From Oscillospiraceae bacterium (GTDB lineage Bacteria > Bacillota > Clostridia > Oscillospirales > Oscillospiraceae): a DNA stretch of 56,526 bases. Position numbers and translations under genes: made by a program. The stretch is from assembly GCA_017624915.1 (NCBI GenBank), contig JAGAMC010000006.1, forward strand, positions 1 to 56,526. The letters run 5' to 3'. The notes beneath the pieces are model-generated. The model had not been told where the DNA came from, did not search any database, and saw only the letters and a list, made by a program, of their open reading frames with translations. Of the stretch, positions 6,206-56,526 are shown piece by piece (position 1 is the stretch's first letter; every line of letters starts with the position of its first letter).

Positions 6206-6244
6206 TAAAAACAGGCGCACCGATACACAGATGTACGGTGCGCC
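6206..6244 (-). terminator. Terminator of the ZTP riboswitch (expression platform)
   Basis: Minus-strand hairpin with arms at 6236-6244 and 6214-6222 (GGCGCACCG / CGGTGCGCC, extended by TAC/GTA with one bulged base), followed by TGTTTTTAA. The 5' arm begins inside the conserved CTGGGC of the aptamer, so aptamer folding and terminator folding should exclude each other. It lies about 20 bases before the purO start. Confidence 0.85.
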
Positions 6245-6320
6245 CAGACGGTCGGCATTCTTATGCGGTATTCCCTGTGGTCAATTCCACTTCCGTCAGT
6301 CATATCGCACGCGGTTGAAT
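6241..6320 (-). promoter_or_regulatory. ZTP (ZMP/pfl) riboswitch aptamer
   Basis: Minus-strand sequence carries the ZTP core elements in order: ATATGACTGACGG (consensus near CGUGACUGGCG), a GTGG-loop-CCAC hairpin followed by AGGGAA, and the 3' block GCCGACCGTCTGGGC (consensus GCCGNCCGCCUGGGCA). It lies between purN and purO and is followed by an overlapping intrinsic terminator. Established family behaviour is that ZTP or ZMP binding blocks termination, so read-through into purO, purH and purD should rise when folate one-carbon supply limits AICAR formylation. The aptamer call rests on recalled consensus, not a covariance search. Confidence 0.88.
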
Positions 6321-21457: not shown

Positions 21458-21495
21458 GCAGCGGGGCATTGCCGCGTTGACTTATAGAAAGAGAG

Positions 21496-21706
21496 ATTTC
21501 CTGCTCGGTGCGTGATGGGCTCTTTTAAACCCACATTTTTTAAACGGGACGCCCCCTCACGGCGTGGCTTGCAGGCCTCCCGGCCCCTTCGAGGTCAGCC
21601 GGACGTTGGAAGCAGTAAAGCGCGGTGGAGGCGACCCACCTGCCGAACGTGCAGGTTTTAAACGGGTCCACACGGCCAGGGCGGGGTTTCCAAGCAGGCG
21701 ATAGAA
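21496..21706 (+). ncRNA. ssrS: 6S RNA (probable)
   Basis: The 354-base gap between two small genes holds a structured RNA, not a reading frame. It has a terminal stem (TTTCCTGCT against AGCAGG..GAA), a 5' half GTGCGTGATGGGCTC with TTTTAAACCCACA and GGGACGCC, and a 3' half GGCGACCCACCTGC with GTGCAGGTTTTAAACGGGTCC. These blocks match my memory of clostridial 6S RNA: a long duplex with a central bubble that mimics an open promoter and binds RNA polymerase. A possible -10 (TATAGA, 21484-21489) precedes it and a strong terminator follows. Exact ends are uncertain. Confidence 0.72.
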
Positions 21707-41599: not shown

Positions 41600-41620
41600 A
41601 AGCAGGACAACTGAATCGAA

Positions 41621-41741
41621 TGTCTTCAGGGCGGGGTGAGAGTCCCCACTGGCGGTACAGTCCGCGACCGGGCGCACAGGTGCGCCCGCTGACCCGGTGC
41701 AACTCCGGGACCAACGGTATAGTCCGGATGGAAGAAGATGT
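41621..41741 (+). promoter_or_regulatory. FMN riboswitch
   Basis: Conserved RFN blocks in order: TTCAGGGCGGGGTGAGAGTC, CCCACTGGCGGTA, AGTCCGCGA, CCGGTGCAACTCCGGGACC, AACGGTATAGTCCGGATG and GAAGAAGA. FMN binding should reduce expression of the riboflavin transporter downstream. Between the aptamer and the start lies a second set of pairings (CATTTCG near 41791 with CGAAATG near 41814, right before the ribosome site AAGGAG), which fits control of translation initiation. Confidence 0.96.
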
Positions 41742-41834
41742 GTGTTACAAACTATGCGCACCTCCTCACGAGTTTTAACACCTGGAAGGCATTTCGTCTT
41801 CTGGGTGTCCAAACGAAATGAAGGAGTGTTTTTT

Positions 41835-50543: not shown

Positions 50544-50561
50544 GTTGAATAAGCACTCAAC
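50544..50561 (+). promoter_or_regulatory. ArsR/SmtB-type operator 2
   Basis: A second GTTGA-N8-TCAAC, 31 bases downstream of the first (about three helical turns), placed between the start of transcription and the arsR ribosome site. Confidence 0.8.
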
Positions 50562-50577
50562 TGAGAGGAGCGGGAGT

Positions 50578-50961
50578 ATGCCGAAAAACGAGTTTACCTG
50601 TGACTGCGGCTGTGTTGACCAACGGCTGGTGGAGCAGACTCTGGCACAAATGCCGGGGCCGGAGATGTTTGACGCGCTGGCTGTTTTTTTCAAGATCATG
50701 GGAGACACAACCAGATGCAAACTGATTTTTGCGCTGCGGAATAATGAGATGTGTGTATGCGATCTGGCCAATGTGGTGTCCATGAGCAAATCGTCCGTTT
50801 CACACCAGCTGAGCAAAATGAGACGGTACGGTGTCGTCAAATGCAGGCGGGATGGGAAAGAGGTCTACTACTCTCTGGATGACAGGCATGTGGACGAGAT
50901 CTTTGCCATTACAATGAAGCATATAAAGCACATCGGCTGCGGAGGGGAATATGAAAACTGA
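50578..50961 (+). CDS. ArsR/SmtB-family metal-sensing repressor
   Basis: 127 residues. N-terminal CDCGCVDQ gives extra cysteine ligands as in CadC-type sensors; the winged helix has FKIMGDTTRCKLIFAL, MCVCDLANVV (the alpha3 CxC site) and KSSVSHQLSKMRR. Metal binding should release DNA. GAGGAG lies 7 bases before the ATG at 50578. It overlaps the exporter gene by 11 bases. The Cys-rich sites suggest Cd/Pb/Zn, by family analogy. Confidence 0.93.
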   Translation: MPKNEFTCDCGCVDQRLVEQTLAQMPGPEMFDALAVFFKIMGDTTRCKLIFALRNNEMCVCDLANVVSMSKSSVSHQLSKMRRYGVVKCRRDGKEVYYSLDDRHVDEIFAITMKHIKHIGCGGEYEN

Positions 50962-51850
50962 ACGCAATATCCTCACGGCGTTTATCCTGAATCTGGCGTT
51001 TTCTGTTTTTGAATTTGTGGGCGGCACCCTTACGGGCAGCGTAGCTGTTGTTTCCGATGCGATCCATGACATGGGTGACGCGGCGAGCATTGGATGCGCC
51101 TGGTTTTTGGAGCGCAGAAGCAGACGGCAGCCCGATGACACCCACACATACGGCTACGGACGCTATTCGGCTCTGGGCAGTGCTGTTATCACGCTGATGC
51201 TGCTGCTCAGCTCCTCGGCTGTTATTTATAACGCTGTGAACCGCATTTTTCATCCTGTGGAGATACACTATGACGGTATGATCCTCATGGCGGTGATCGG
51301 TACAGCAGTCAACTTTGCCGCCGCGTGGTTTACAAGGGGAGGGGACTCCCTGAACGAGAAGGCTGTCAGCCTGCATATGCTGGAGGATGTGCTGGGCTGG
51401 CTGGTGGTGCTGGCGGGAGCGGTGATCATGCGTTTTACGGATATTTCCCTGATCGATCCGCTTATGTCCATTGGGGTAGCTGTATTTATTTTGGTCAGTG
51501 CGGTGAAAAACCTGACAGAGATCGTGGATCTGTTTCTGGAAAAGACGCCTGAGGGGGTCAGTGTGGCCCGAATCAAAGAGCACCTGTGCAGCATGGAAGA
51601 AATTCTGGACGTACATCATATTCATGTCTGGAGCAGAGACGGGCACAGCAGCTGTGCCACCATGCATATCGTCACGGATGAAGACCCGGTGAGTGTGAAA
51701 AGAAAAGTCCGGGCGGAATTGAGTGAACACGGGATCGGACACGTGACGCTGGAACTGGAAACGGGAACGGAACAGTGCGGCGAAGAGTGCTGCTCTGTGC
51801 AGCTGTCAAGAGGCGGTCATCATCACCACCATCACCATCATCACGGATAA
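50951..51850 (+). CDS. Cation diffusion facilitator (CzcD/ZitB-like) with nine-histidine tail
   Basis: 299 residues, six membrane segments. Metal sites: SDAIHDMGDAASIG in helix 2 (HxxxD) and LHMLEDVLGW in helix 5 (HxxxD), and a cytoplasmic domain with ILDVHHIHVWSRDGH. It exports Zn2+ or similar ions in exchange for protons. The C-terminus adds CGEECCSVQ and then GGHHHHHHHHHG, a natural metal-binding tail of nine His. It overlaps arsR, so it is the regulated target. Confidence 0.93.
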   Translation: MKTERNILTAFILNLAFSVFEFVGGTLTGSVAVVSDAIHDMGDAASIGCAWFLERRSRRQPDDTHTYGYGRYSALGSAVITLMLLLSSSAVIYNAVNRIFHPVEIHYDGMILMAVIGTAVNFAAAWFTRGGDSLNEKAVSLHMLEDVLGWLVVLAGAVIMRFTDISLIDPLMSIGVAVFILVSAVKNLTEIVDLFLEKTPEGVSVARIKEHLCSMEEILDVHHIHVWSRDGHSSCATMHIVTDEDPVSVKRKVRAELSEHGIGHVTLELETGTEQCGEECCSVQLSRGGHHHHHHHHHG

Positions 51851-54759: not shown

Positions 54760-54788
54760 TTGACAATTCGGGATGCCTGTGGTACATT
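54760..54788 (+). promoter_or_regulatory. Promoter of the structured RNA
   Basis: -35 TTGACA (54760-54765), 17-base spacer, -10 TACATT (54783-54788). Start of transcription near 54795. Confidence 0.8.
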
Positions 54789-54794
54789 ATAGCC

Positions 54795-55230
54795 AGAAAG
54801 GGTGAGTCCAATGTACTAAATAGCTACCCTGAAAGGATGCTGAAGGCAGACGCACAAAAGCAGCGAAAATCGGCAAGATGAAATTTAACACGTCAAAAAA
54901 TGCAAAACAGTTTCGGAAACACGGCACATTTTAAATATAAGCGAAAGCGTTTTGGAATGTGAAGAGTAAAACCTGCCGAGATCAGCATCCGGAAACACGC
55001 AAAGCCAACTGATCGCAAAAGAAGGATAAACCAACGCGATGCCTCTGCTGGAGGTTGATGTACCCAAGAGGGTGACATGATATTAGGTTGTGTGTTTTTG
55101 ATCCGGAACTGCAGACAAGGGCTTTGACGTGAATCTGTAGAAAGTGAGGTAAACAATTGATGTTAGATAATAAGAATGAACAGAAATGACCCTCTATCGT
55201 ATTACGGAACGATAGAGGGTCATTTCTTTG
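54795..55230 (+). ncRNA. Large structured non-coding RNA, family not identified
   Basis: The 645-base gap between DUF2461 and metA has no credible reading frame but holds a promoter, a 19-bp terminator and many paired segments: GGATGCTGA (54835-54843) with TCAGCATCC (54982-54990); nested inside, TCGGCA (54870-54875) with TGCCGA (54974-54979) and CACATT (54925-54930) with AATGTG (54956-54961); then CCTC/GAGG near 55042-55054, ATGT-ACCC / GGGTG-ACAT (55058-55077), and CTGCAGA (55109-55115) with TCTGTAG (55134-55140). It lacks the marks of tmRNA, RNase P RNA, SRP RNA and group II introns. It may belong to a known clostridial orphan class such as raiA RNA; I could not confirm that. Confidence 0.7.
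55182..55230 (+). terminator. Terminator of the structured RNA
   Basis: 19-bp perfect stem AGAAATGACCCTCTATCGT / ACGATAGAGGGTCATTTCT with an 8-base loop, followed by TTG. The T-run is short but the stem is exceptional. Confidence 0.88.
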
Positions 55231-55239
55231 TTATACAAT

Positions 55240-56371: not shown

Positions 56372-56401
56372 TTGACAAAGGGGTATGGGAGGTGGTAATA
56401 T
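56372..56401 (+). promoter_or_regulatory. Strong promoter reading out of the window, rRNA-operon-like
   Basis: -35 TTGACA (56372-56377), 18-base spacer, -10 TAATAT (56396-56401), preceded by an A-rich tract (GAAAAAACTGAAAAAAGG) like an UP element. The 125 bases after it are G-rich, non-coding and lack a ribosome site near the end, as in rRNA leaders of this group. No gene is visible before the window ends. Confidence 0.55.
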
Positions 56402-56526
56402 AAGCGAGCGCCTGAGCGAGGGGCGAAAACGGGCGGGGCCGGGAAACGGGCCTGAGCGTTAGAGCCGCAAGGGAAAGGGCGTATACCGCAGGAGGCTGTT
56501 GAGACCTGAAATCAAAGAAATTTGAA

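Follow-up and report, generated by a model that had tools for sequence, protein, structure and literature searches.

The raiA RNA (RF03072), which is the ModT of C. difficile, is a folded clostridial RNA, and the lambda bar minigenes titrate translation by way of peptidyl-tRNA drop-off and initiation complexes. For Bacilli there are reports that an RNA can be protected at a distance by a ribosome-binding site at its 5' end (review PMC3997798, excerpt). The two-codon minigene of axe-txe has been reported to increase expression in cis, possibly via mRNA stability (PMC8708949, excerpt). Leaderless communication peptides (LCP/SIP) are mostly 8-10 residues long and are encoded, without a leader, by tiny ORFs with a ribosome-binding site; their further traits are high hydrophobicity, specificity among related species and an adjacent receptor of the RopB type (PMC10518010, excerpt). 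The fthC and ilvB motifs combine leader-peptide uORFs with stems, the stop codon often lying in a stem in the case of fthC, and control a fixed downstream gene (PMC11109978, excerpt).

The locus analyzed here occupies positions 54760-55232 of a 56,526-nt stretch of DNA (the window; features are on the forward strand unless stated otherwise) and combines a promoter-like site with a folded RNA that ends in a 19-bp terminator with covarying pairs. A sequence-only reading had described it as a large structured RNA without a reading frame, having its own promoter and terminator. The promoter-like site (54760-54788) comprises a -35 element TTGACA, a 17-nt spacer and a -10 element TACATT preceded by TG, with 10/12 matches. 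Two sites of promoter type were observed within 901 bases, where chance predicts 1.6, so that the site is weak taken alone; it is supported by the same layout in homologues. The terminator of that reading is confirmed. The palindrome-like sequence TTTRTAYA was noticed upstream of the promoter, or of its -35 element, at 27 of 52 sites outside the genus (e.g. L171, L176, L185 and L194) versus 1 of 49 genus sites, presumed genus members having been removed from the former set beforehand by a short sequence filter; it is possibly the site of a regulator.

The intrinsic terminator (55182-55227) is a 19-bp hairpin followed by a T-run. Within the genus, two-sided changes occur at 11 of its 19 pairs; across families they occur at all 17 modelled pairs of alignment A6, which holds 61 rows chosen from the loci recovered by RNA model and DNA pattern (see below), L207, L223-L226 and some near-duplicates having been excluded beforehand. 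In this alignment 96.6% of the terminator cells are paired versus 31-51% when the structure is slid, a figure favoured by the derivation of the structure from A6 itself. Rfam 15 yields no match at gathering score, either at the locus or in 20 related loci. Lowering the threshold to E = 10 gave ten matches at the locus, all far under the gathering scores; nine of them involve the terminator hairpin, and the tenth falls upstream of the promoter. The earlier exclusion of tmRNA and RNase P holds, the genome's own copies being located at C48 and C16, respectively; SRP RNA and group II introns were covered by the Rfam scans. A raiA-type RNA, proposed at the same time, finds no backing in the Rfam scans of the window, which contain no RF03072 match; a raiA search of the whole genome also gave none, but its controls gave none either, so that this search says little by itself. 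Since no family reaches its gathering score and covariation is present, the locus may fairly be read as belonging to an undescribed RNA class. Rfam does identify an FMN riboswitch (41618-41743), a 6S RNA (21495-21691) and, on the reverse strand, a ZTP riboswitch (6235-6313) in the window. At 50545-51850, a small gene resembling a regulator, judged by its translation, precedes one that ends in a run of histidines; the two are possibly a metal-efflux pair. At 56372-56526, a TTGACA-like promoter precedes a G+C-rich sequence that runs to the end of the contig, with no Rfam match.

Homologues were collected by several routes. DNA queries matched 59 of the 61 genomes of the genus, the own genome included, at one place each (the misses being G029 and G042), and 2 of 38 genomes of the order outside the genus, giving a set of 61 loci in which sequence similarity is found at both ends and the middle drifts. 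A DNA pattern recovered at least 117 stretches in named genomes, the matches listed including Lawsonibacter, Flavonifractor, Pseudoflavonifractor, Oscillibacter, Ruminococcus, Ruminiclostridium and Faecousia. Six loci (L082, L092, L111, L118, L121 and L179) in which the frame stays open for more than 20 codons were taken as ordinary genes and removed from later counts. An RNA model built from the second reading frame (ORF2) and the terminator, which does not demand the frame, matched 48 of 295 genomes in a sample of the order, some of them weakly, and 18 of 291 in a sample of the class, the own genome being included in both; four weak loci of the class sample (L223-L226) lack ORF2 and are not members, which leaves 13 others. 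A second RNA model matched 4 of 398 genomes in a sample of the phylum, including the own genome. Spread beyond Clostridia was rejected, the 397 other genomes of this sample yielding just three weak matches; weak matches are lost in the large-scale searches, which used stricter filters. In no fewer than 20 genomes of this family the RNA model found no match, and the gene is thus patchy. Several loci hold more than one copy: five in L174, three in L075 and L109, and two in L066, L151, L182 and L192. Neighbouring copies differ in the tails of ORF2 and in the middle; the five copies of L174, between 4770 and 7605, read MLDIKNNQ, MLDIKNSR, MLDNKNSQ, MLDNKNHQ and MLDNKKNQ. A phage element was considered and dismissed, the best phage matches (staphylococcal phages) having E 0.09 and the sole match on a viral contig being L179, an ordinary gene. 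A plasmid element was rejected likewise, with one record of note, an 860-kb replicon of Vescimonas fastidiosa, which carries a member.

The statement that the locus holds no reading frame has to be withdrawn, as two micro-ORFs, each preceded by a Shine-Dalgarno sequence, are conserved in frame. The first (ORF1) belongs to a module at 54797-54819, in which the Shine-Dalgarno sequence AAAGGGTGAG is followed by ATG-TAC-TAA, Met-Tyr-stop (54811-54819), close to a 5' end that is predicted solely from the promoter. Typical members carry, near the 5' end, a Shine-Dalgarno sequence, CC(A/C/G), ATG, one or two codons and a stop. The peptides found at 115 sites, with a pattern that required the stop and with a few ORF1s counted twice for neighbouring copies, are MYR (23), MY (19), MYK (14), MW (11), MKR (9), MF (8), MYS (5) and others. 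When sites were anchored without requiring the stop, it followed after one or two codons in 112 of 114, versus 9/114 and 0/114 in the other two frames. The anchor is absent at 33 of the 147 sites selected by the ORF2 motif, and some of these visibly have no ATG at that place, so that ORF1 is not obligatory. The distant members L212, L213 and L220 have similar ribosome-binding regions before ORF1 and ORF2 (AAGAAAG-A/C-GAGG), as if by duplication or through a shared binding factor.

The second micro-ORF (ORF2, 55160-55189) encodes MLDNKNEQK and is conserved in frame; its Shine-Dalgarno region (GAAAGTGAGG, 55140-55149) is strongly conserved, and an in-frame TTG at 55157 could serve as an alternative start. 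The consensus is M-L-D-x-K-S-E-Q-K, where x is N, I, T, L, F or P, and the peptide, short, charged and hydrophilic, has 7-11 residues, mostly 9, its frame ending inside the terminator. Among the 147 sites, which are distinct in a 60-nt core yet related rather than independent, and in which the invariance of the ORF2 core is partly imposed by the patterns used to pick them, an in-frame stop at codon 8-12 is found in 142 and exactly 9 codons precede the stop in 129; of the five exceptions three run off the contig (L061, L105 and L156) and two have lost the stop (L154 and L207). The RNA model gave 98 matches in 56 loci, of which 67 remain after removal of 30 antisense matches, due to the palindromic terminator, and one duplicate; 62 of these 67 same-strand matches contain an ORF of 7-11 codons with a stop, the failures being L207 and the four weakest, L223-L226. 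The leucine codon varies between TTA, CTA, TTG and CTG, GTG and TTG occur as alternative starts, and some members have one extra codon after the start (MKLDNK, MTLDIK, MTLDTK, MKLDLK). Divergent members such as MNTDFKSNRK and the branch LSEPKNEQK / LAEPKSEEN are still in frame. The synonymous share of one-base codon changes in alignment A6 is 0.36 in frame versus 0.15 and 0.13 in the shifted frames, and over codons 2-5 it is 0.51 versus 0.01 and 0.06, the columns being blurred since the script read a preceding ATG as codon 1 in some rows. The stop codon (55187-55189) lies in the 5' arm of the terminator stem; it is UGA in 93 cases, UAA in 42 and UAG in 7, and the partner bases change along with it. 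Conservation of the last ORF2 codons is confounded with that of the stem. A decoy of a real gene start was rejected, the combination of Shine-Dalgarno sequence and ORF2 occurring once in the own genome. The ORF2 residues are kept, unlike those of ORF1, which suggests that selection acts on the peptide or on the nascent chain.

As for the fold, the sequence 54787-55230, terminator included, beats 100 of 100 shuffles (z -6.4), and for 54790-55175, which leaves the terminator out, none of 100 shuffles was as good (z -2.7). The long-range pairing of 9 bp described earlier is borne out: it joins 54835-54843 to 54982-54990 and encloses an inner helix formed by GGCAG (54845-54849) and CTGCC (54973-54977), and a helix of 7-9 bp is kept at its position in 6 of 6 sequences (the own one and five hand-picked close homologues), with compensating changes. 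Its core is GGATGC/GCATCC here and AGATGCG/CGCATCT, CGATGC/GCATCG or CGATAC/GTATCG in close relatives; one of the six sequences has a rival pairing of equal length that includes G-U pairs. Hairpin H1 (55042-55054, CCUC-UGCUG-GAGG) occurs in 55 of 58 genus loci versus 2.7% of shuffles. Hairpin H2 (55061-55074, UACCC-AAGA-GGGUG) has different stem sequences in relatives with the pairing kept (GCCGU/ACGGC, GUCGU/AUGAC, ACCGC/GCGGU) and reaches a score of at least 4 in 46 of 55 sequences versus 24% of mononucleotide shuffles. Two results speak against a large conserved fold. The consensus fold of 38 genus sequences retains the terminator alone (the CCUC hairpin being one column out of register in this alignment), and at the sites with a recognised ORF1 the middle measures 99-545 nt in 49 cases within the genus and 12-649 nt in 63 others. 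Within the genus it is poor in U (16%). Since it shrinks to 12-14 nt at four sites outside the genus, the folded middle is an elaboration, supported within the genus, and not the core. Across families, conservation falls on the two tiny reading frames and on the terminator rather than on the fold, and a purely noncoding structured RNA no longer describes the locus.

The gene neighbourhood was assessed on proteins hand-picked without a fixed rule from 74 downstream and 79 upstream mechanical ORFs, leaving out ORFs overlapping the RNA, near-duplicates and doubtful ORFs. No neighbour recurs: the commonest Pfam family accounts for 3 of the 58 downstream and 3 of the 66 upstream proteins scanned. 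In the window, judging by the translations, the gene upstream seems to encode a DUF2461 protein and the one downstream, which has the opposite orientation, a homoserine O-succinyltransferase; among the neighbours of relatives these two families were found in 2/66 upstream and 2/58 downstream, respectively. The ORF that follows the RNA has the opposite orientation in 47 of 74 cases, or 82 of 116 when the first genus loci are added. An attenuator of a fixed downstream gene was rejected, because neighbours do not recur and downstream genes are mostly convergent, and for the same reasons the product probably acts in trans. An adjacent receptor of the RopB/RRNPP type was not found to recur, no family exceeding the above 3/58 and 3/66 neighbours. 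TPR repeats, which RopB/RRNPP-type receptors also carry, occur in 2 of the 66 upstream neighbours.

Our tentative explanation is a stand-alone micro-mRNA. Ribosomes on ORF1 would form a dock shielding the 5' end against a 5' exonuclease, as in two-codon minigenes and Stab-SD leaders; this would account for ORF1 keeping nothing beyond its start, shortness and stop. ORF2 would be translated into a short unprocessed peptide working in trans, as an intracellular ligand or an exported signal, which would explain the conservation of its residues and not of those of ORF1, and the overlap of stop codon and terminator may link the point where translation ends to that where the transcript ends. The scheme as a whole stays short of probable; it is by judgement that we place a free peptide ahead of nascent-chain arrest and of a pure sRNA. 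Doubtful, if possible, is the wider proposal of a Clostridia-wide gene, its copies sometimes tandem and diversified, whose sole conserved product would be a precursor-free peptide of ~9 residues made from a bicistronic micro-mRNA, flanked by a start-stop ribosome dock on one side and a stop codon embedded in the terminator on the other, and which would represent a new smallest type of protein-coding gene.

A rather unlikely reading is that of a ribosome-arrest or translation-sensing RNA, in which the nascent M-L-D-x-K would hold the ribosome at the base of the terminator and set RNA lifetime or termination in cis. It would accommodate the stop codon in the stem with its covarying partners, the first five residues as the best-kept ones, and the nine codons before the stop in 129/147 sites, but no downstream gene recurs that could be controlled, a ribosome at the ORF2 stop would open the terminator, and short-tailed members place the stem 3-6 nt nearer. 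Unlikely, too, is a trans-acting regulatory sRNA in which the variable middle is functional and the micro-ORFs are generic modules for ribosome protection of the 5' and 3' ends: the middle is indeed folded with compensating changes and poor in U within the genus and differs among tandem copies, but its reduction to 12-14 nt at four sites speaks against it, and the conserved ORF2 residues and synonymous change would be left unexplained. A minigene titrating translation in the manner of lambda bar would fit two- or three-codon ORFs with strong Shine-Dalgarno sequences and is quite improbable, given that some members have no ORF1 and that ORF2 residues are conserved past need. A CsrA sponge, suggested by a purine-rich RNA with two ribosome-binding sites and GGA motifs seen by eye, is scarcely credible, as CsrA was not found in the own genome by a search that matched 3 of 14 control genomes.

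Genes so small are easily missed by annotation and resemble noncoding RNA. With a conserved nine-codon frame, synonymous change and a covarying stop, the minimum size of a real gene becomes directly testable, in gut bacteria, and the case cautions that "orphan RNAs" with a fold could in fact be micro-mRNAs.

As to novelty, peptide and DNA strings of the family are absent from the 5.39 million open-licence papers searched, in which the minigene and microprotein wording also retrieved no matching paper. The terms Flavonifractor, Oscillo-, Ruminococc- and Faecalibacterium do not occur in the main texts of three RNA surveys (PMC8040213, PMC11109978 and PMC8632094).

Compared with the known systems, the likeness to raiA is that of a folded clostridial RNA, but there is no Rfam match here and the architecture differs from the raiA layout. 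The uORFs of fthC and ilvB, as excerpted from PMC11109978, share the short ORF with stems, and that of fthC the stop in a stem, but here no downstream gene recurs. Leaderless communication peptides agree with ORF2 in length (7-11, mostly 9), whereas the ORF2 peptide is charged, found across Clostridia and without a recurring neighbour (PMC10518010, excerpt). As in two-codon minigenes and Stab-SD leaders, a strong Shine-Dalgarno sequence and a start-stop ORF with variable residues lie near the predicted 5' end, an arrangement found at 112 of 114 anchored sites, and ORF1 fits the reports of stabilisers in that its residues vary and its shortness is constant; unlike here, where the sole later ORF has 7-11 codons, those elements precede a main protein gene (PMC8708949 and PMC3997798, excerpts). 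Since its strings are in no paper searched and the known kinds differ from it, we file the locus, as judged from its sequence, as a new family whose nearest kinds are the minigenes and Stab-SD leaders and the leaderless peptides.
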